A stretch of DNA of 35,893 bases from an uncultured Bacteroidota bacterium (GTDB lineage: Bacteria > Bacteroidota > Bacteroidia > NS11-12g > UBA955): positions 1-35,893 of the forward strand of contig CALMKH010000188.1 of NCBI GenBank assembly GCA_937867025.1. Reading direction: 5' to 3'. Shown here piece after piece: positions 21,955-34,516 of the stretch. A model generated the notes under the pieces. That model was not told where the DNA came from and did no database searches. It saw only the letters and a program-made list of their open reading frames with translations. The first letter of the stretch is position 1. Each line of letters starts with the position of its first letter. The translations under genes and the position numbers were made by a program.

Positions 21955-24558
21955 TTACTCCACAATCTTCCTGAGTTCCTGCAGCTTCATCAGCGCATCG
22001 ATCGGGGTGATGACATTCAGTTCCAACCCTTTCACCTGCCTGTGCAATTCTTCGAGTTTCGGATCGCTAACACCAAACATTGTCAATTGATACTGAGGCA
22101 CTTTCAGCTTTTTCATGGTTTCTTTACCGGTTACCTGGGCGCGGTCTTTTTCAAGCTCTTCAAGTATTTCTTCAGCCCTGCTCACCACTGCCTTGGGTAC
22201 ACCTGCCATCCGCGCCACATGAATACCGAAGCTATGCTCGCTTCCTCCCCTGACGAGTTTTCTCAGGAACAACACCTTGTCTTTTGTCTCCCTCACCGAA
22301 ATATGAAAATTGACGATACCGTCAATGTTTTTTTCAAGTTCGTTCAGTTCGTGATAATGCGTGGCAAAAATAGTCTTAGGCGCTTCGGGATGCCTGCCGA
22401 GGTATTCAGCTATGGCCCAGGCCAGCGACACGCCGTCAAACGTACTTGTACCCCTGCCTATCTCATCCAGGAGGATGAGGCTTCTTGCGCTGACATTGTT
22501 GAGTATCCCCGCCGTTTCAATCATTTCTACCATGAAGGTACTTTCGCCGCTGGAGATATTATCACTTGCCCCAACCCTTGTATATATCCGGTCCACCAGG
22601 CCGAATTCCGCCTTATCCGCCGCTACAAAACAACCGATCTGACCCATCAGCACGGCGAGGGCTGTTTGTCTCAGCACGGCGCTTTTACCGCTCATGTTCG
22701 GACCTGTAAGGATTACTATCCTTTGTTTGTCCTTACTCAGCTCGATATCATTCGGGATATAGGCATTGTCCAGGCCTAACTGTTTTTCAATGACCGGGTG
22801 CCTGCAACCGAGCAGTTGGAGATCAAACCCCTCATTTATCAGCGGCTTCGTATACCCGTTATTCCGCGATACAATGGCAAATCCCAGCAGGCAGTCGAGC
22901 CTGGCCAGCAACTGGCTGTTCAGCTGAATGGGCAATATATAATCTGCCATATGCTGCAGTAGCTCGCTGTATAGCTTCGATTCGATTTCAAGTATCCTGC
23001 TCTCCGCGCTCAGTATCTTGTCTTCGTATTCCTTCAGTTCCTGGGTGATATACCGCTCGGCATTTGACAATGTCTGTTTCCTTATCCAGTCGGAAGGCAC
23101 CTTGTCCTTATGCGTATTTGTAACCTCCAGGTAATAACCGAACACATTGTTGAATGCAATTTTCAAAGAGGATATGCCGGTCCTTTCAACTTCGCGTTTC
23201 TGTATTTCAAGGAGTTTCTCTTTGCCATGATACTGCAGGTTTCGCAATTCATCAAGCTCGCTATCCACTCCATCATGAATGACGCCTCCTTTGTTGACAA
23301 GCAGCGGGGCATCAGGCTTCAGTTCCCGGACGATCTTTTCATTAAGCAGCTGGCATGGATTGAGCTGATCGGCCAGTACCTGCATGTCTGTACCGGGCAT
23401 TTGTGAAGCGGTCTGTTTGATCTGCCGTATACAGTCCAAAGCTTTTGCAAGCTGTAATATTTCCCTCGGATTGGCCCTCAGGAGCGATATCTTGGAAATG
23501 ATACGTTCGACATCGCCGCACTGCGACAGGACATTCGACAATATCTCTGTCGCATCAGAGTTCCGGGCCAGAATTTCCACAGTGTTCAACCTGGAATTGA
23601 TCTCATGAAGATCTTTCAGAGGCAATACGATCCACTTTTTCATAAGCCTGCTTCCCATAGGGGTGGCCGTTTTGTCCAGTATGTCGAAGAGGCATTTTCC
23701 TCCGGGGTAGGTGGGGTACAATATTTCCAGATTCCGGATGGTAAATTGATCGAACCAAACGAACTTGTCCTCATCTATGCGGCTGATCGAGTTGATATGC
23801 CGGATATTTCCCTGCTGGTTGTGCTCGAGATAATATAAAGAACTGCCAGCTGCGACTATTGCCGCGGGGAGATGGCTGATCCCGAAACCTTTCAGTGTAG
23901 AGGTGCCGAAATGGTTGAGCAGTTTTTCCTGCGCGTAATCCGGCTGGAAAACCCAGTCATCCAGCACAAAGTGATAGAATTTATCATTGGTCAACTGCCT
24001 GAAAGTATTTACCTGGCCTTTGCTGATGATGATCTCGGAAGGCCTGAGACTGTTCAGCAACTTGTCGATATATTCCAGTGAGCCTTCGGCAACCATGAAT
24101 TCACCCGTGGAAATATCCAGGAATGAACATCCGGCTTGCGAACCGCTAAAAAATACTGAAGCGAGAAAATTGCTGCTATGGGTATCCAGCACTTTATCAT
24201 TGAACACCACTCCCGGCGTTACGAGTTCCGTCACTCCACGCTTGACGATTCCCTTCGCCATTTTGGGATCTTCCAGCTGGTCGCATATCGCCACCCTGTG
24301 CCCCGCCCTCACTAGTTTGGGCAAATATGTGTCCAGCGAATGATGGGGAAATCCTGCGAGTTCGATTTCGCTGCTGCTTCCGGCCCCACGCTTTGTCTGT
24401 ACTATTCCCAACACTTTAGCCGCAGTGACGGCATCCTCCCCGAATGTCTCATAAAAATCCCCCACCCTGAATAAAAGCAATGCCCCCGGGTACTTTTGCT
24501 TGAACCCGAAGTATTGTTTCATCAGTGGTGTCTGATTATCCGTTATCTTTGCCCCCAT
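21955..24558 (-). CDS. mutS: DNA mismatch repair protein MutS
   Basis: 867 residues. It recognises mispaired bases and signals to MutL. The mismatch-reading Phe-x-Glu motif is present as GDFYETF (Phe35, Glu37). A connector/lever/clamp region follows, then the ATPase with Walker A GPNMSGKS (619-626), STFMVEM, Walker B LILLDEIGRGTST and the FATHYHEL switch. The C-terminal tail is short and helical. The layout is MutS1, not the MutS2 type (no Smr domain). The start ATG at 24558 gives the usual ~25 residues before the mismatch motif. Divergent from the RNA methyltransferase. Confidence 0.96.
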   Translation of the reverse strand: MGAKITDNQTPLMKQYFGFKQKYPGALLLFRVGDFYETFGEDAVTAAKVLGIVQTKRGAGSSSEIELAGFPHHSLDTYLPKLVRAGHRVAICDQLEDPKMAKGIVKRGVTELVTPGVVFNDKVLDTHSSNFLASVFFSGSQAGCSFLDISTGEFMVAEGSLEYIDKLLNSLRPSEIIISKGQVNTFRQLTNDKFYHFVLDDWVFQPDYAQEKLLNHFGTSTLKGFGISHLPAAIVAAGSSLYYLEHNQQGNIRHINSISRIDEDKFVWFDQFTIRNLEILYPTYPGGKCLFDILDKTATPMGSRLMKKWIVLPLKDLHEINSRLNTVEILARNSDATEILSNVLSQCGDVERIISKISLLRANPREILQLAKALDCIRQIKQTASQMPGTDMQVLADQLNPCQLLNEKIVRELKPDAPLLVNKGGVIHDGVDSELDELRNLQYHGKEKLLEIQKREVERTGISSLKIAFNNVFGYYLEVTNTHKDKVPSDWIRKQTLSNAERYITQELKEYEDKILSAESRILEIESKLYSELLQHMADYILPIQLNSQLLARLDCLLGFAIVSRNNGYTKPLINEGFDLQLLGCRHPVIEKQLGLDNAYIPNDIELSKDKQRIVILTGPNMSGKSAVLRQTALAVLMGQIGCFVAADKAEFGLVDRIYTRVGASDNISSGESTFMVEMIETAGILNNVSARSLILLDEIGRGTSTFDGVSLAWAIAEYLGRHPEAPKTIFATHYHELNELEKNIDGIVNFHISVRETKDKVLFLRKLVRGGSEHSFGIHVARMAGVPKAVVSRAEEILEELEKDRAQVTGKETMKKLKVPQYQLTMFGVSDPKLEELHRQVKGLELNVITPIDALMKLQELRKIVE

Positions 24559-24616: not shown

Positions 24617-25138
24617 ATGTTCCGCAAGTTAAGCACTGACCAGTTAAACCGATTAACAATTTATCAATACCGGCAAGCCGGTAAACACCCTGTAGCGATC
24701 GTGCTCGACAACGTCCGGAGTATGAACAATGTAGGCAGTATCTTCCGGAGTGCGGATTGTTTTGGCATTGAAAAGGTTTACCTGTGCGGTATCACTGCCA
24801 CACCGCCTCACAGGGATATACACAAAACAGCCCTTGGTGCGGAGGAAAGCATGGAATGGGCCTATTATCCGGATACGGCTGAACTCTGCCGTGAACTGAA
24901 ACATCAAGGCTATACGCTTATTGCTGTCGAGCAGGTGGAAGGAAGCACTCCTTTAGGGGAAATCAAGCTGGAAAAAGACAAAAAATACGCGGTTATTTTC
25001 GGAAATGAAATTGACGGCGTTTCTGACGGAGCGCTGAATTACTGTGATGCCTGCATCGAAATTCCCCAGTACGGCACCAAGCATTCCTTCAATGTGTCAG
25101 TCTGTGCGGGAATTGTATTATGGGAATTACTGCATTGA
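24617..25138 (+). CDS. TrmH-family (SpoU) RNA 2'-O-methyltransferase
   Basis: 173 residues, a compact SPOUT methyltransferase without an N-terminal substrate-binding extension. The three SpoU motifs are clear: NVRSMNNVGSIFRSADCFG (motif 1), IFGNEIDGVSD (motif 2) and EIPQYGTKHSFNVSVCAGIVLWE (motif 3, in parts). The C-terminal knot would bind S-adenosylmethionine. The target (tRNA or rRNA) cannot be read from sequence. The start ATG at 24617 lies in a 58-bp gap divergent from mutS. Confidence 0.9.
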   Translation: MFRKLSTDQLNRLTIYQYRQAGKHPVAIVLDNVRSMNNVGSIFRSADCFGIEKVYLCGITATPPHRDIHKTALGAEESMEWAYYPDTAELCRELKHQGYTLIAVEQVEGSTPLGEIKLEKDKKYAVIFGNEIDGVSDGALNYCDACIEIPQYGTKHSFNVSVCAGIVLWELLH

Positions 25139-25151
25139 TCTGAAACCGCTT

Positions 25152-25925
25152 TCAGTCATCTCCGCCCCCGAATGGATTTATCTTCAGGATAACTCCTACC
25201 ATGACAGACGGTGTGAAATATGGTATGGCATTGTCGTCGCCATTGGCATTAAACGCATGATATGCCGCGAGCTGCCCGTAAAATTTCACATGCTCAAAGC
25301 CGAACCTGAATTGTACGGCGTGCTCCAGGAGATTGTAGTAACTCTTGCTGTTAAGACGTTTTAAATCGTTTTCCCAGAAACCGCTATCGCTGCCGCTGTA
25401 CCTGGCATTTTTAAAGGTGAGCTGGCTCAGCCGTGCCGAATAGGCCAGCGTGAAATTCTCCCCCGAATAACCGATATTCCCCAGTAAGCCTATACGTTCA
25501 TAATCGCCGTTCAGGTATTCATCCCGGCCGCCTGAGGTCGAGTTCCTGTAATTCCCCTTGCCATAATCACCATACACTTCAAACCTGAGGTTTTCGCTGA
25601 TGTTGCTGTTCAGGAAATAACCGAAACCGAGATTGAGCATATTGCCGCTGTACCGGTACTTTGAAAATTCCATGGAATCGATATTGCCGCTGACCTTTGC
25701 CCCGGAATATCCTGCATAAGCTCCGAGACCGTTGGTAATAGCGCATCCCGCGGTCAGGTCGTATTTATTCAATGCGATGTTTGTTGAACCGTCGAGATAC
25801 AGATCGCCTCTTTCTTCAAAAAAAGGCACGGGGTTGCGGTTTGGCGTGTAGAACCGGGCCCTGCAGGAGCTGAGCAGAGCCCCCGACAAGATTATGAACA
25901 CCCATGTTGTATATTTTTTTGTCAT
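25152..25925 (-). CDS. Lipoprotein with beta-barrel-like body, unknown function
   Basis: 257 residues from ATG 25925. The lipobox LLSSC puts the acylated cysteine at residue 21. The rest is built of Gly/Tyr-rich alternating strands (GLGAYAGYSGAKVSGN, NLGFGYFLNS, FEVYGDYGKGNY) that look like an outer-membrane barrel or a beta-rich surface protein. The frame continues 44 codons further upstream, but that extension has no export signal at its end. A one-mismatch -7 (TAATTTCG) lies about 18 nt before the chosen start. It is divergent from the caspase-like gene across 138 bp. No named family recognised. Confidence 0.65.
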   Translation of the reverse strand: MTKKYTTWVFIILSGALLSSCRARFYTPNRNPVPFFEERGDLYLDGSTNIALNKYDLTAGCAITNGLGAYAGYSGAKVSGNIDSMEFSKYRYSGNMLNLGFGYFLNSNISENLRFEVYGDYGKGNYRNSTSGGRDEYLNGDYERIGLLGNIGYSGENFTLAYSARLSQLTFKNARYSGSDSGFWENDLKRLNSKSYYNLLEHAVQFRFGFEHVKFYGQLAAYHAFNANGDDNAIPYFTPSVMVGVILKINPFGGGDD

Positions 25926-26024
25926 TGAAGTTTTAATTTCACACGAAATTACTAAACTTTGTATGCTGCATACCGTCATTTGAGCCATTATTTCCCTGAT
26001 TTTAATCACCTTGCGTATTTTCAG

Positions 26025-26049
26025 CCAAAAAATGTGGCACCATTTTTGG
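26025..26049. promoter_or_regulatory. Near-perfect inverted repeat over the -7 region of the caspase-like gene
   Basis: CCAAAAAATG (26025-26034) and CATTTTTGG (26041-26049) are inverted repeats differing by one A, with a 6-nt centre. The right arm contains CATTTTTG (26041-26048), a one-mismatch -7 element 15 nt before the ATG at 26064. A 13-bp palindrome, GTATGC-T-GCATAC, lies further upstream at 25961-25973. Confidence 0.35.
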
Positions 26050-26063
26050 AAATTCATAAAGAA

Positions 26064-28097
26064 ATGAAATTATTCATTACAAGCGTCTTACTTCTGCTGA
26101 CCGGTCAAAATATTGCCGCTCAAAAAACCGATTGGCAGCAACAGATCGATTACGAACAGAACCGGATCGAACTGGTTGACGGAGACCTTGATCAGCAGGT
26201 GAATATCGGGAATGCATCCCAGAACAAGCTTGCTACCCGCATTTATATTGGGATGATAGACGAGGCGCAACAGCATATCAGGCTGATGGACGCACGCAAT
26301 GCCGAACTGTATGCCAGGGCATTTTTCGAGTATGTAAGGAAAATAGAAAAGCAGGATATTTACCATCTTTCTTCCGGGCACCGCCAAATGGAGCTTGCCG
26401 GTAAACTCCTTACGCTCAACAACCCTTCCAAGGAACTTGAACTCCTCAAGAACGATCTCAAAACAGGATTGGCTATTTCGGATATCATCAACATTAAATC
26501 ATACGCCAGGGAATACTGGGTTTACGCCGCTAATTTTTATCCTACCGATGTGCTGAATAAATTCAAGGCGCTGGCTTATACCCCCCTCGGAACCGAGGTT
26601 ATAAACGCTCTGGCAAGGATTGACCCGAATGCCATCAAGCAGTATTTCGGATCGAACCACCTCATCGACCGGGCAGTCAAAAACTCCAAGGATTCGGTTG
26701 TACAACTCGTATATTCCATTTATCAGAAATACGGAACACAATCGAAATCGTACGCTCTTCTGGAATATATTCACAAGAAACAGCTCGAACTGGAAGACGC
26801 CGAAACGCTGGCCCGAAATTCAAGATTGTTTTACAAGACACTGATCGAACTTCGCAAAAAGGAGCATATCCTCGCCGATTATACCGTGGAAAAGGAACTG
26901 CAGGCCATCGGCATGGAACGCGTGGTGGAGATCAACCTCCGGCACGAAGACAAGGATACATACCGTTTTGAACCTATTCAGCATGATAATGCGAAAGAGA
27001 TTTACACGGCCATTGTTTACTGTCCGGAAGAAATATTCACATCTACATTTCTGGGCATGTACAAACGTATGATGGCGAAGCGGAAGGATGCTTCGGGCTT
27101 TGATTTCCTGAAGCGGGTGAATTTCAATAAATTCAGGGTGTTTCTGAAGCAGTGCGCCGGTTATAATAAGCTGGATGATTTTTTCAGCACCATGACCGAC
27201 AGCCAGGCTAACGCGCTGATTAAAATGTTCGCAGGAGGACTTTACAATTATGGAGGCAACCTCGGTCCGGCCGTAGATGTAGCCGACACATACGGCAGTC
27301 TTGAGGACGATAATATCAAGATACTGTTCATGCAGACTATAGAAAAAGAACTCAGGACCTGCATTCTGAACAACAACGAACACGGTATAAAAATATACGG
27401 ACTGCTGCTGAGGCTTACGGGCGGAAGACCTGAAAACTACACCTCCATGTACAGCTTTAATGTGCCTGATCTCGACCGGGTAACAAGTTCGGAATTATTC
27501 CCCGACAGCGTGCATATACAGCAGCACTTCTTCTTTGATGATGAAGACGGAACCGCAGCTTTCAACAGTTGGGTAAACCTGTATCCCGCTTCGAGTTATA
27601 AAAAGGAAGACAAAGGCAATTACATTGTATTTAAAACGATACAGGGTAAAAGAATGGAGATCTACGCCAATAAACCTCAGAACGAGATACAGGGCAGGAA
27701 AGACCTCCAGAAATATTTCGAAAGCAGACACAGGTTCCCCGACCTGATCGTTCACAGGGGGCATAGCTATTATATCCAGAATACCCTGGATTACATGACC
27801 AACAGCAACCGCATAGCGATACTGGGCAGTTGCGGAGGATACCAGAACATCAGCAAGGCTATGGAAAATGCGGCAGATGTACATATCATCAGCACCAAGC
27901 AGGTGGGCACCATGGCGGTGAACACGGTACTGATCCAGGAGATATCCGAAACCATCAGGGCCGGCAAGGATGTGGTGTGGATGGATGTATGGAAACAGAT
28001 TGCAGCCAAGCTCAAGAACAATCCCCAGTTTAAGGATTATATCCCTCCTTATAAGAACCTGGGTGCCCGTTTTATCAGGGCTTATAATGAATTGTAG
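26064..28097 (+). CDS. Exported protein with candidate caspase-fold (clan CD-like) C-terminal domain
   Basis: 677 residues. A signal peptide (MKLFITSVLLLLTGQNIAAQ) sends it out of the cytoplasm. Residues ~25-500 are mostly helical with no recognised domain. From ~500 the pattern becomes alternating strands and helices. Strand DLIVHRGHSYY carries His564 and His567, strand RIAILGSCGGY carries Cys590, and a further strand DVHIISTKQVG follows. A His at the end of one strand and a Cys-Gly at the end of the next is the hallmark of caspase-fold peptidases. The His564-Cys590 spacing of 26 equals that recalled for separases. No sorting domain is present at the C-terminus, so it is probably periplasmic. 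Activity and substrate are unknown; it could be a pseudo-peptidase. An upstream in-frame extension lacks a signal peptide at its end. Confidence 0.6.
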   Translation: MKLFITSVLLLLTGQNIAAQKTDWQQQIDYEQNRIELVDGDLDQQVNIGNASQNKLATRIYIGMIDEAQQHIRLMDARNAELYARAFFEYVRKIEKQDIYHLSSGHRQMELAGKLLTLNNPSKELELLKNDLKTGLAISDIINIKSYAREYWVYAANFYPTDVLNKFKALAYTPLGTEVINALARIDPNAIKQYFGSNHLIDRAVKNSKDSVVQLVYSIYQKYGTQSKSYALLEYIHKKQLELEDAETLARNSRLFYKTLIELRKKEHILADYTVEKELQAIGMERVVEINLRHEDKDTYRFEPIQHDNAKEIYTAIVYCPEEIFTSTFLGMYKRMMAKRKDASGFDFLKRVNFNKFRVFLKQCAGYNKLDDFFSTMTDSQANALIKMFAGGLYNYGGNLGPAVDVADTYGSLEDDNIKILFMQTIEKELRTCILNNNEHGIKIYGLLLRLTGGRPENYTSMYSFNVPDLDRVTSSELFPDSVHIQQHFFFDDEDGTAAFNSWVNLYPASSYKKEDKGNYIVFKTIQGKRMEIYANKPQNEIQGRKDLQKYFESRHRFPDLIVHRGHSYYIQNTLDYMTNSNRIAILGSCGGYQNISKAMENAADVHIISTKQVGTMAVNTVLIQEISETIRAGKDVVWMDVWKQIAAKLKNNPQFKDYIPPYKNLGARFIRAYNEL

Positions 28098-29269: not shown

Positions 29270-32200
29270 TTACCTCAGCAGATGGAATGTCCCTTGCAGG
29301 TTGTATGTCCTGTTATCGGCGCCCAACGCCTCTATATGATACAGGTAAACATCCTGCTGGCAGCGCTCGCCTTGGAAGGTTCCGTCCCATGGAGCCATGC
29401 AGTCCGAGGTTTCGAACACCTTTTCTCCCCAACGGTTAAATACCCGGAAATTATATTTTGAAATATACTGGCCCTTAGGACCGAACTTCTCGTTAATGTC
29501 ATTCATGTCAGGACTGAAGGCATTCGGAACAAACAGTCTGGAAGCCGGATATGCCTGCGCTTCATTTGACAAACTTACGGCGAAATTATTCGTCGGATTG
29601 TGTATATGGCTTACTGCCCGCACCCGGTAAATATAATGAGGTGTGCAGCTTTCCCTGGCGTTCTTGTCAACGAATGAATTTTCAGTGGCCGATGTTTTTC
29701 CCACCAGGATAAATGTCCCATCCTCCTGCTTTTGTTCAACTTCATAATACGCAATGTCCTGATCCCACTTCCGGTAGTGATTCCACATCAAGGCGGGCTT
29801 TTGGGTGGCCTCGTCAAAATATGCTTTCAGAAGTATGGTTTGCGCCATGTTGCTGACAGGCGTAGTGTCTCCGCAATTGTCTATACCCCTCACCGTATAT
29901 ATGTAGCTGTATTGGTCAACCTTCACATGGTGATCCTCGAAAACCGTATCCAGTGCATCAAAATACTTATAGCTGAATACGGGGTCGCCATTGGCAAAAG
30001 TCTTGTACAGCAGGTATCCTTTGATGCCATTTCTGCTCCAGGCATTATTTAACCATTCCACCCTGGAGAATTCATTATTTTCAACAGTGGTCCGCCAGGC
30101 ATAATTAGGCTTGGTGGTATTTATATAATAGGGCTTTGCTGTTGCCGTATCGCTGTTGGAATACTCTTCAAACCCGCCTGACTGTATGGCTTTGATCCGG
30201 TAATTCTTTCGTATATTGCAGGTAATCAGCGTATCGATATAATTCAACTGGTCTGACTTTACGGAATCGAGAAGGACATATGCCTCGGGCAGATCATAAT
30301 CCTGGCGCCATATCTCGTACCTTGCAATACTGTCGAACCCAATGTACGGAGACCATTTGACATGGTTGGCATCCAGTTGCCCGTAAGCCTTTGTCTCGAT
30401 TGTGCAGTGTTCCTGCGAAAGTTCAATATCCGATGAAAAGAGACAAAGGTTCTGGCTTGATATCTTGTAACAATAGGATTCCTTGAGTGTGTGGCACTGG
30501 GGGTCGATGAACACCGTATCCGAAATATCGGTCACATCCGCCATCCTGTAATACTTATTGTTGGATTCGCGATAGATGATATATTTTGTAAAATCGAAGG
30601 TCGGGTACTTTGCAAAAACAAGCTCCACCTGCCTGTTGTTGAGCACTGAAGCCCGGCGTATCGGCACAACAGGCGGCGAAATGGTGTCTCCGACCACGGC
30701 CACCTGGGGTTTGATCATGGTATCCTCGCAGTTCAGTATATCCCTCGCAATAAGCCTCACGTCATATTTGCCAGGAGCGTAATAGATATGCGTTACTTTC
30801 TGCAGGTTGGATGTATTTCCGTCTCCGAAATCCCATTCATAATGCACAACCGAAGTGTCTGAAGTAACCGTGTTCGTAAACGGCATGATATTTCCCAGAC
30901 AGACAAATTCCTTATCGGCTGTGAAATCCGCTACCGGGGCAAATATCTTTATCATGTTGTCAAACGTATCCTTGCAGGTTCCCTTATTCTCGGCGATGAA
31001 CCGTATCTGCTGGTAACCCCTTGCTTCCGGCATGAAGAATGAATCGGTTCCCGGACTTTTTTCGTTGCCGTTGAGGTACCACTTCATTTTTACGTTGGGA
31101 TCCTCATGGTTGCTGACAGTACTGTGACTCACCTTTATCGGCTGATGATAACACAGTCCGCTGAGGGTTGTCCGGGCATCCGGATAATCGAATACTTCAA
31201 TGGTATCTACAGGTGGCAGGGTGTATTTGCATCCCAGCGTATCGGATAATATCATGGCAGGGATGTATCGGCCCCTCTGCTTATAAACATGCTTGAAATT
31301 ATTCCCTTCGCGGACAACACCGTCTCCAAGATCCCATTCCATGGTGGCGGAATCGAGCGTCTTGCCCCTGAAGCCTACAGTATGAGGCAGGCAGCCGTTA
31401 CCACGGTCAAAATCATATGAACCTCTCGGACCGTTTACAATGACATAGCCCGGTTTTTTGAGGGTTGCGGTACAACCGGACTTACTTGTCACGCGCAACG
31501 TTATGTCGTAAGATCCCGGAACGAGGTATAATTTCTGTGGCTCTTTCAGTTGTGAGGTGGTTCCGTCACCGAAATCCCATTCCCATGAAGTCACCTCGCT
31601 TGTAAAGGATTTGGAAAAATCCATGAACTGGCATTGCAACGGCGGGCAGAACCGGCCTGTAGGATCAGCTTTGAACAATGGCTGCAGGGTATTGGGTGAG
31701 ACTTCAAAACTATCTTTGAACACGGTTTTGCATCCAAATTTATCCGTAATGGAAAGCTTGAAGTAATTCATGCCCATGGTCTTAAACTTGGAACTCCAGT
31801 TCTGTGCATTCACTGTCTGGCCATTGCTCATTTCCCAGGTATAGGTCATAGGTCCCTTGGACATGGATGAACTGTCTATGAAAGACTTGAAATAAAAGAT
31901 CGGCGTATCACAGACCGTAAACCTCTGGTACAGGTAACTTGCCACCGGACCTCCGAAAGGCAGCTGGTATTCCTTTTCGGAAATACAGCCATTTCCGGCC
32001 TGTACAATGTGTTTCACTGTAATAAAACTGTCCTTTTGAGGGACGGAGAGCACATCATATTTGGTGATCATTGTGCCTGGCTCAATGATGTCATCGCCTA
32101 TTTTCCAAGCATGGTAATTGTTATCTTTTCCCACCAGGGAATCGATGAGTGTGAGAGTGACCGGCATGCACTTATCGCTGGCAAGGACACTGCTTCTGAG

Positions 32201-34516
32201 CGTAGCTCCGTTGATATTGAAAATAATAAAATTGGTATCCTGGCATTCGCTGGAATCGTAATGTCCTACCAGATACACTTTATATGATCCCGGCGTCTTG
32301 AATATGTATGAAGCCGATTGTTTTGAAGTTGTGTCGCCATTGGGGAATATCCACTTTGAATCTTTAAGTGTGCCGTTGTGACTCAGCGATGCTTTTGAAG
32401 GAGCGCAGTTCTGGTTAAGCGACCATTTCAAACCAGGGTCATTTGGAGGAATGGACAAAAGAGGTGATACCGAATCTACACAATTGAAGGTATCATTCCA
32501 GCCTTTGATTTTATATTCGGAAGGTTCGTATGATGTAATAATTTCCGGTTTTTTATGGTCCAGGATAATCGTATCATCTTTGGTAAGCAGTACTTTGTTT
32601 GCCCAGGAATATGTTGGTTTCAGCGATACCACGGTGTTCTTGCAATCCAGGAATTTAGCCGTCAGATTGATAAACGGCCCATGAAGATAAATCGTGTCGG
32701 CCTCTTCGGATTCCTGTATACAACCGAAATGTTTTGCCTGTATCCTTATCTTATACCTTCCGCCTTTGCCCTGGGAAGTCATGATAGAATCTTTGATAAT
32801 ATCAGCAAGGGTATCGCCTTTATTCATATCCGTTTTTGAATAATGTACCTTCAGGCTGAAAATGGCTTTCTGTTTAACGCTGTCGTGGGACGTATTGATA
32901 AAGTGTATCGTGTCGTTATTGCATAGATGCTTGTTCAATATTTTGAAAGATGGCGTATAGCGGTTACCGACTGAAATCTTCACTGTATCATAAAGGATAC
33001 AACCGTTAATGGTTTCGACACGCGCAATTCCAACAAAATTTCCCGGCTTATTGAATTTTTTATTGACATTTTTGGACTTATAAACCGTATTTGAATCGGT
33101 GAATGTCCATTGGTATGATTTAACACCTTGCAGCAGGTATTCTTTGATTTTGTAATCAGCGCTTTGGGGCAGGCAGTCCGAAAGGCTCTCCGGAGTAGCT
33201 TCAATGCGCTGGGTCCCGACGAGTATCTTGTTCGGCAGTGTCAGGTCCAGACCACAGCCGTAGCTGTTTGTTATGCTGGCAGAAACCTTGTACTCGCCAT
33301 TTTTCTGGTAAATGTGTTCGATAGGAGTCCCCTTGTTAAAAAACTGGGTGCTGTTATCACCGAATTTCCATACACTTGATACATAATCGTTGCCGCTGAT
33401 CTTGAATACCGCCTTGTAAGGAGCCTTGCAGCCAACGGAATCCGTAACACTTATTGTAGCTACCGGTTCAGGATTGATCTTTATCGGAATAACCGTCGAA
33501 TCGCTGCAGCCGCCGCTGCTTACCCTCAGCTTGACACTATAAGTGCCCGGGGCGCTAAAACTGTGCTTCGGGCTTTTGTTAGTGCTGGTGTTACCATCCC
33601 CGAAATCCCAGAAAAATGTAAGTCCCGCCGCTGAAGTAGACGTATTTGTGAATGTAAGACTGTCGTTCTGGCACAGCGACCCGGGCGGAACATTGAATTT
33701 TGCAGTCAGTTTCTCTACATTCACCTGCTTAGTGACGGTATCGTTGCAACCATTGCCAACAGCCACCAGCCTGACATTAAACTTGCCAAAACTGCCGATA
33801 TTGGTGGTAAAATCTTTCCCGCTTCCGTTGCTGCCGTCAGTGCAGTTCCATTGGTAACTGCCGGCTCCCGTGCTGGTATTCGTGGCCTTGAAAACTCCGG
33901 GCAGCATGCAGCTGTAAGTCTTATCAAGAGTAAATCCGGCTTTAGGAGTTGGCTTGATCCTTACATAGTTAGTCTTGGTTTTCAGGCTTTTGCAGCCGAA
34001 ACCGTCGACGATTGTAAGACCAATGATGAAAAAACCGCTATAGGTATAACTATGGCCCGGTGCCTGTTTGTTGCTAAGTGATCCATCCCCGAAATCCCAT
34101 GTCCACTTCGTGATAGTTGTATCCGCTTTTATGGAAAGATCGCTGAAATCCAGTCCTTCTCCAATGCAGCCCACTGTATCGCCTGAGAAATTAGCGGTAG
34201 GATTGGCAAAAACGCGCACTGGACTGAATGTCCTGGTGGATTTGTTACCGCTGGCATCCGTTACAGTCAGGGTGACCGTAAAATTCCCCGATTTGTAATA
34301 AATGGCCGATGGATTTTTGAGGGTCGATTTGTTACCGTTACCAAAATCCCAGAGGTAAGAACTGATGTTTCCCGTGCTCTGATCGGTGAAATTAACCGTC
34401 AACGGCACACAACCTTGTCTGGAGGATAAGGCAAAGTTTGCTACAGGCTGAGCATACGTAAAAGCTAAACCCATTGATAGACACACAATTACACAAAACT
34501 GCCTTAAAGAAAGCAA
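29270..34516 (-). CDS. Giant PKD-repeat surface protein with gliding-associated (type B) T9SS sorting domain
   Basis: 1748 residues. A signal peptide ends near AYTYAQ-type residues (~22). Residues ~25-1270 hold roughly a dozen PKD-like units; recognisable cores include LWDFGNG (~55), WTWDFGDG (~138), FFWDFGDGNTS, WEWDFGDGTTS, MEWDLGDGV and YEWDFGDGNTS, with others eroded. Residues ~1275-1655 look like fibronectin III-type units (YIIYRES, YEIWRQDY, YLLYKTF, YYEVEQKQ). The end (~1659-1748: FVPNAFSPDMND, FNRWGEKVFET, WDGTFQG, DVYLYHIEA) is the gliding-motility-associated CHU_C domain used for type IX export. It is probably an adhesin or surface fibre; no enzyme motif. The start is TTG at 34516, as no upstream ATG exists and later ATGs destroy the signal peptide. 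Confidence 0.85.
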   Translation of the reverse strand: MLSLRQFCVIVCLSMGLAFTYAQPVANFALSSRQGCVPLTVNFTDQSTGNISSYLWDFGNGNKSTLKNPSAIYYKSGNFTVTLTVTDASGNKSTRTFSPVRVFANPTANFSGDTVGCIGEGLDFSDLSIKADTTITKWTWDFGDGSLSNKQAPGHSYTYSGFFIIGLTIVDGFGCKSLKTKTNYVRIKPTPKAGFTLDKTYSCMLPGVFKATNTSTGAGSYQWNCTDGSNGSGKDFTTNIGSFGKFNVRLVAVGNGCNDTVTKQVNVEKLTAKFNVPPGSLCQNDSLTFTNTSTSAAGLTFFWDFGDGNTSTNKSPKHSFSAPGTYSVKLRVSSGGCSDSTVIPIKINPEPVATISVTDSVGCKAPYKAVFKISGNDYVSSVWKFGDNSTQFFNKGTPIEHIYQKNGEYKVSASITNSYGCGLDLTLPNKILVGTQRIEATPESLSDCLPQSADYKIKEYLLQGVKSYQWTFTDSNTVYKSKNVNKKFNKPGNFVGIARVETINGCILYDTVKISVGNRYTPSFKILNKHLCNNDTIHFINTSHDSVKQKAIFSLKVHYSKTDMNKGDTLADIIKDSIMTSQGKGGRYKIRIQAKHFGCIQESEEADTIYLHGPFINLTAKFLDCKNTVVSLKPTYSWANKVLLTKDDTIILDHKKPEIITSYEPSEYKIKGWNDTFNCVDSVSPLLSIPPNDPGLKWSLNQNCAPSKASLSHNGTLKDSKWIFPNGDTTSKQSASYIFKTPGSYKVYLVGHYDSSECQDTNFIIFNINGATLRSSVLASDKCMPVTLTLIDSLVGKDNNYHAWKIGDDIIEPGTMITKYDVLSVPQKDSFITVKHIVQAGNGCISEKEYQLPFGGPVASYLYQRFTVCDTPIFYFKSFIDSSSMSKGPMTYTWEMSNGQTVNAQNWSSKFKTMGMNYFKLSITDKFGCKTVFKDSFEVSPNTLQPLFKADPTGRFCPPLQCQFMDFSKSFTSEVTSWEWDFGDGTTSQLKEPQKLYLVPGSYDITLRVTSKSGCTATLKKPGYVIVNGPRGSYDFDRGNGCLPHTVGFRGKTLDSATMEWDLGDGVVREGNNFKHVYKQRGRYIPAMILSDTLGCKYTLPPVDTIEVFDYPDARTTLSGLCYHQPIKVSHSTVSNHEDPNVKMKWYLNGNEKSPGTDSFFMPEARGYQQIRFIAENKGTCKDTFDNMIKIFAPVADFTADKEFVCLGNIMPFTNTVTSDTSVVHYEWDFGDGNTSNLQKVTHIYYAPGKYDVRLIARDILNCEDTMIKPQVAVVGDTISPPVVPIRRASVLNNRQVELVFAKYPTFDFTKYIIYRESNNKYYRMADVTDISDTVFIDPQCHTLKESYCYKISSQNLCLFSSDIELSQEHCTIETKAYGQLDANHVKWSPYIGFDSIARYEIWRQDYDLPEAYVLLDSVKSDQLNYIDTLITCNIRKNYRIKAIQSGGFEEYSNSDTATAKPYYINTTKPNYAWRTTVENNEFSRVEWLNNAWSRNGIKGYLLYKTFANGDPVFSYKYFDALDTVFEDHHVKVDQYSYIYTVRGIDNCGDTTPVSNMAQTILLKAYFDEATQKPALMWNHYRKWDQDIAYYEVEQKQEDGTFILVGKTSATENSFVDKNARESCTPHYIYRVRAVSHIHNPTNNFAVSLSNEAQAYPASRLFVPNAFSPDMNDINEKFGPKGQYISKYNFRVFNRWGEKVFETSDCMAPWDGTFQGERCQQDVYLYHIEALGADNRTYNLQGTFHLLR

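Follow-up and report, generated by a model that had tools for sequence, protein, structure and literature searches.

A conserved chromosomal gene for an exported protein

The window, that is, the whole stretch of 35,893 nucleotides that was analyzed, carries at 26064–28097 of the forward strand an open reading frame that translates without internal stops into 677 residues, with MKLFITSVLLLLTGQNIAAQ at the N-terminus; full-length orthologs are present in the order of the source genome, and the opposite strand of this interval contains in-frame stops. A longer frame opening with a TTG at 25959 would place extra residues ahead of the signal peptide, but the relatives favor the ATG at 26064 as the start. 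Residues 1–20 (26064–26123, forward strand) form a predicted signal peptide without a lipobox, and since a similar hydrophobic N-terminus occurs in 47 of 50 relatives (by simple hydropathy, not SignalP), the initial annotation of the product as an exported protein holds. The same simple measure detected neither a lipobox-like motif nor a later stretch resembling a membrane helix in any of the 50 relatives. A Sec-type signal peptide combined with neither of these features suggests a soluble periplasmic protein. The proteins encoded at 468–2471 and 29270–34516 of the window have a matched type IX secretion tail, whereas Pfam found none in the 677-residue protein. The one at 29270–34516, on the reverse strand, has 1748 residues and combines seven PKD stretches with a type IX secretion tail of the CHU_C kind.

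The predicted layout comprises a mostly helical N-terminal part of about 450 residues, followed by an alpha/beta domain of about 200 at the C-terminus. Averaged over stretches of 40 residues, conservation is about 0.4 in the N-terminus versus 0.6–0.7 in the C-terminal domain (residues 470–677; 27471–28094, forward strand), which alignments (A2–A4) and a crude strand/helix order delimit as the candidate caspase-like catalytic domain. The alignment also reveals a conserved patch in the N-terminal half, residues 291–331 (26934–27056, forward strand), of which R301, T326-S327 and G331 are retained even in the homologs from Azospirillum.

Upstream of the gene lies that of a SpoU-type RNA methyltransferase (24617–25138, forward strand), which also occurs in the flanking sequence of the gene at 31 of 40 loci from the same order, and mutS (21955–24558, reverse strand) is a neighbor in 30 of these 40, so that both adjoin the gene in about three quarters of the loci. 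Between spoU and the gene under study, the window and some close relatives contain an inserted gene (cluster 3; 25152–26057, reverse strand) without Pfam match, the product of which is lipoprotein-like in a relative. In a second Bacteroidia family (f4), the gene is flanked by what the sequences suggest to be a divergent histidine kinase/response regulator pair on one side and an ABC exporter on the other, beyond which lies the ATP synthase operon. The settings are stable within the order and within f4 and differ between them; this stability within each group gives the appearance of a core gene rather than of a mobile defense or toxin cassette. The neighborhood points to no partner.

Distribution and descent

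Among the near relatives, 63 of 97 genomes have exactly one copy of the gene, with one incomplete genome carrying two fragments, and 39 loci belong to named genomes, nearly all labeled Bacteroidota. Across 392 genomes of the phylum, strong matches were obtained only in the source genome and in f4, which, judging by its more than 100 genera and its genomes of 2–9 Mb, is probably the Chitinophagaceae. There, the gene occurs in 283 of 296 genomes (about 96%) and in 101 of 103 genera, some genomes having two or three copies. In some of them (e.g., L088, L089), a second copy is more divergent and has different neighbors, yet keeps HRGHS and GSCGG.

Outside the phylum, four plasmids of Azospirillum encode homologs of about 25% identity, annotated as hypothetical proteins only, in which HRGHSY and GSCGG are intact and most of which have signal-peptide-like starts. 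On these large plasmids (L193–L196), genes for ethanolamine ammonia-lyase, DUF1194, LysE and GGDEF proteins adjoin the homolog in three of four cases. The phage collection and the viral contigs contained no relative, so that, to the extent of these collections, the gene does not belong to phages. In the tree, the order of the source genome, f4 and Azospirillum are separate, in agreement with the lineages. This fits vertical inheritance within Bacteroidota, mostly as a single copy, and a single ancient split from, or transfer to, Azospirillum. A role as toxin or defense factor was considered and judged unlikely, given the conserved chromosomal setting, the vertical tree and the lack of a PADLOC match.

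The His and Cys blocks and a possible caspase-like fold

The motifs DLIVHRGHSYY (His564, His567), RIAILGSCGGY (Cys590) and DVHIISTKQVG, as well as the distance of 26 residues between His564 and Cys590, were reproduced from the translation. The pattern of strand, His, 26 residues, strand and Cys is on its own at chance level: in a background of 526 unrelated open reading frames neighboring the gene at its loci it was found in 3 (about 0.6%), versus 2.55 after shuffling, and with any gap from 20 to 55 it was found in 52 (about a tenth), versus 73 after shuffling. A single occurrence in one sequence thus carries no evidential weight, which lies instead with conservation among homologs.

Among 53 relatives from the same order, H564, R565, G566, H567, S568, Y569, G588, S589, C590, G591 and G592 are 100% identical. 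In a set of 175 sequences combining this order, f4 and the four Azospirillum proteins, H564, R565, G566, H567, S568, G588, C590, G591, D493 and D495 are identical throughout, as are N620, W639, W643, Y659 and P662, and H567 and C590 are always 23 residues apart; the invariance extends to the Azospirillum homologs despite their identity of about 25%. A 176th relative (L241), which the extraction rule had removed from this set, also retains both His and the Cys. The initial annotation would have been contradicted by free variation of His564, His567 and Cys590, and all three proved invariant in the 175 relatives. The residues fall into the block H564-R-G-H567-S-Y569 (27753–27770), which closes a hydrophobic segment, the block G588-S-C590-G-G592 (27825–27839) with the candidate nucleophile Cys590, which closes another, and the acidic loop D493-E-D495-G496 (27540–27551) following the first strand, all on the forward strand. 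In part of f4 (e.g., L075, L072), the acidic loop is longer and reads GDEDQDGQLSF, which resembles an EF-hand and has a weak match to the EF-hand in Pfam. Two His and one Cys that remain unchanged in about 175 relatives probably mark a real cysteine enzyme.

The family is unnamed in the family libraries searched: Pfam, NCBIfam, PHROGs and PADLOC returned nothing above cut-off for the 677-residue protein, Pfam and NCBIfam likewise yielded no hit above threshold for eight diverse relatives, and a profile search of PDB sequences gave chance matches only, such as the SWIRM domain of LSD1 at HRxHSY. As observed separately, the source genome additionally encodes an ordinary Peptidase_C14 protein and gives two matches to Peptidase_C25 (G000:C318:12937-13650, G000:C80:13151-14272).

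The order of a strand with His before a strand with Cys is shared with clan CD, as had been proposed, and both residues are invariant throughout the family. The caspase/haemoglobinase fold has parallel strands in the order 2-1-3-4, with its catalytic dyad where beta-3 and beta-4 end (PMC4357240). Crude propensities suggest here a strand at 483–491, a hairpin at 519–525/531–534, a helix at 540–555, a strand ending before H567, another ending before C590, a helix, a strand at 606–610 and further helices. This predicted order is compatible with that clan CD core, except that the hairpin replaces the single second strand. Coevolution, calculated from 175 sequences that count as about 110 effective ones at 80% identity, yielded a few believable pairings and is too weak for a fold; the signals, at the hairpin 521–535 and in a parallel pairing of 559–562 with 579–582, beside the His and Cys strands, weakly fit the caspase/haemoglobinase fold.

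When the family profile was compared by hhalign with alignments of C14, CHAT and C25 built here, no significant match was obtained (probabilities 0.2–10%), and the scores for C14 and C25 were within the decoy range. The best local match was to CHAT and placed Cys590 on the catalytic Cys, with a score of 25–28 versus 20.8 for the best of 29 decoys, although it covers only 16–18 columns and is not significant. Of the controls, C14 and CHAT recognized each other (89%), and C14 and C25 also failed, which means that the comparison lacks power. The usual motifs of clan CD are His-Gly and Ala-Cys (PMC12445089), in place of which the family has a nearly invariant Gly-His-Ser and Gly-Ser-Cys-Gly-Gly. 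Because the clan is defined by fold, this mismatch lowers the odds of membership and does not exclude it; membership is plausible, and the protein is quite possibly a distant cousin of the caspases.

CHAT proteins (PF12770, including TPR-CHAT/Csx29) likewise have an invariant Cys preceded by two invariant His and provide the best local profile match at the Cys strand, but they differ by H-x-x-x-H-G and Ala-Cys, by a gap of 46 residues (first sequence of A5) and by the lack of significance of that match. The gingipains and PorU (C25) and clostripain (C11) are cysteine peptidases of clan CD that are exported too and use a His-Cys dyad. In the gingipain RgpB an acidic S1 residue follows the first strand (PMC4357240), a position that may be comparable to that of the acidic loop here. 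The present protein differs from this group in that it matches neither family, lacks a type IX secretion tail and has an hhalign score against C25 inside the decoy range.

Separase (MEROPS C50, clan CD), to which the initial annotation had likened the protein by its spacing and layout, has a large helical N-terminus, a C-terminal domain with His and then Cys, and a Gly preceding the catalytic His. In the human enzyme these are G2002-H2003-G2004 and C2029 (PMC12609080). The counterpart of this Gly-His is G566-H567-S568, so that H567 rather than H564 is the likelier catalytic His, lying 23 residues from C590. The separase-like spacing of 26 depends on H564 and was rejected as a diagnostic feature; such spacing also occurs by chance. 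Moreover, TPR-CHAT, described as most closely related or homologous to separase, has its dyad H585/C627 at a gap of 42 (PMC9729208), and the spacing is therefore not diagnostic among clan CD families. The Pfam separase model gave no match at E<=10 for the 677-residue protein, and none for its relatives. The argument from layout is weak as well, since a helical N-terminus with a C-terminal protease is found in many unrelated proteins too. The protein is bacterial and exported, with a likely spacing of 23 instead of 26, His-Ser instead of His-Gly and no sequence link to separase, and the analogy is weak. As for the proposed new group of caspase-fold peptidases, the protein and its relatives do lie outside every family searched, but the assignment to the fold received no significant support from the C14, CHAT and C25 profiles, and its separase-specific argument is weak.

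A putative cysteine hydrolase of the envelope

Taken together, the sequence data suggest that the gene probably encodes a vertically inherited, periplasmic, caspase-like cysteine hydrolase that forms an unnamed family. We consider it rather probable that the C-terminal domain of a Sec-exported soluble protein works as a cysteine hydrolase, in all likelihood as an endopeptidase of caspase-like fold, with a housekeeping role in the envelope being the likelier one. In the inferred dyad, His567 (G-H-S) and Cys590 (G-S-C-G-G) would stand at the ends of neighboring parallel strands, Cys590 serving as nucleophile and His567 as base (H564 being possible), while the G588-S-C-G-G turn would provide the oxyanion hole. 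The S1 pocket may be lined by D493 and D495, which follow the first strand; if so, Arg or Lys would be the expected residue before the cleavage site. Basic P1 residues are recognized by Asp163 in RgpB, Asp365 in MALT1 and Asp95 in TbMCA2 (PMC4357240), and the position of D493/D495 may roughly match these. The N-terminal part with its patch of R301, T326-S327 and G331 may hold, position or gate the substrate, and the enzyme might act in processing or quality control of exported proteins. Since almost every member of a large family keeps the gene in a fixed chromosomal context, such a housekeeping role is likelier than one in defense or as a toxin.

Among the alternatives, an alpha/beta cysteine enzyme of another fold, for instance with a class I glutamine-amidotransferase-like or racemase-like Rossmann domain and a Gly-x-Cys-Gly-Gly nucleophile turn, would be an amidase or hydrolase instead of a peptidase. 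The short G-x-C-G-G-Y-Q turn is indeed shared with the class I amidotransferases (GATase_3), and the sole recurrent subthreshold matches in Pfam and NCBIfam were those of GSCGGYQ with GATase_3 and cobyric acid synthase and those with Amdase; all of them, however, stayed below cut-off (lowest E-value over 46 members, 0.0035). A class I amidotransferase requires a His-Glu downstream of the Cys, and the 175 sequences have two invariant His before C590 and none after it, so that the amidotransferase reading fails and a different fold of this kind is, on the whole, unlikely. A caspase-like fold that does not cut peptides, but serves as a binding or a ligase/transpeptidase protein and uses the His/Cys block for other chemistry, seems to us more doubtful still: PorU, a C25 protein, acts as a sortase, and His-Ser in place of His-Gly and the unusually long invariant block H-R-G-H-S-Y would suit such a function, but both dyad candidates are fully invariant, as in active hydrolases, and no degenerate member was seen among the 175 sequences. 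That His564, His567 and Cys590, together with D493/D495, build a metal-binding or structural site in a non-catalytic periplasmic binding or stress protein is very improbable, for the H-x-x-H spacing, the invariant Asp residues and the EF-hand-like DxDxDG loop of some relatives (a weak Pfam match) are set against a Gly-rich G-S-C-G-G turn behind a hydrophobic strand, which would be typical of nucleophiles and not of metal ligands.

The chances appear evenly balanced that the caspase-like hydrolase favored here constitutes, in full, a new exported peptidase family with its core in a major Bacteroidia family and relatives in Azospirillum, acting as a housekeeping periplasmic protease gated by its helical domain. 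A gene present in about 96% of the sampled f4 genomes, with invariant His and Cys and without an entry in the family libraries searched, is a strong candidate for an overlooked enzyme of the envelope. The usual settings of clan CD are death, defense and virulence; if the protein is caspase-like, the clan would gain a family with an exported housekeeping role.
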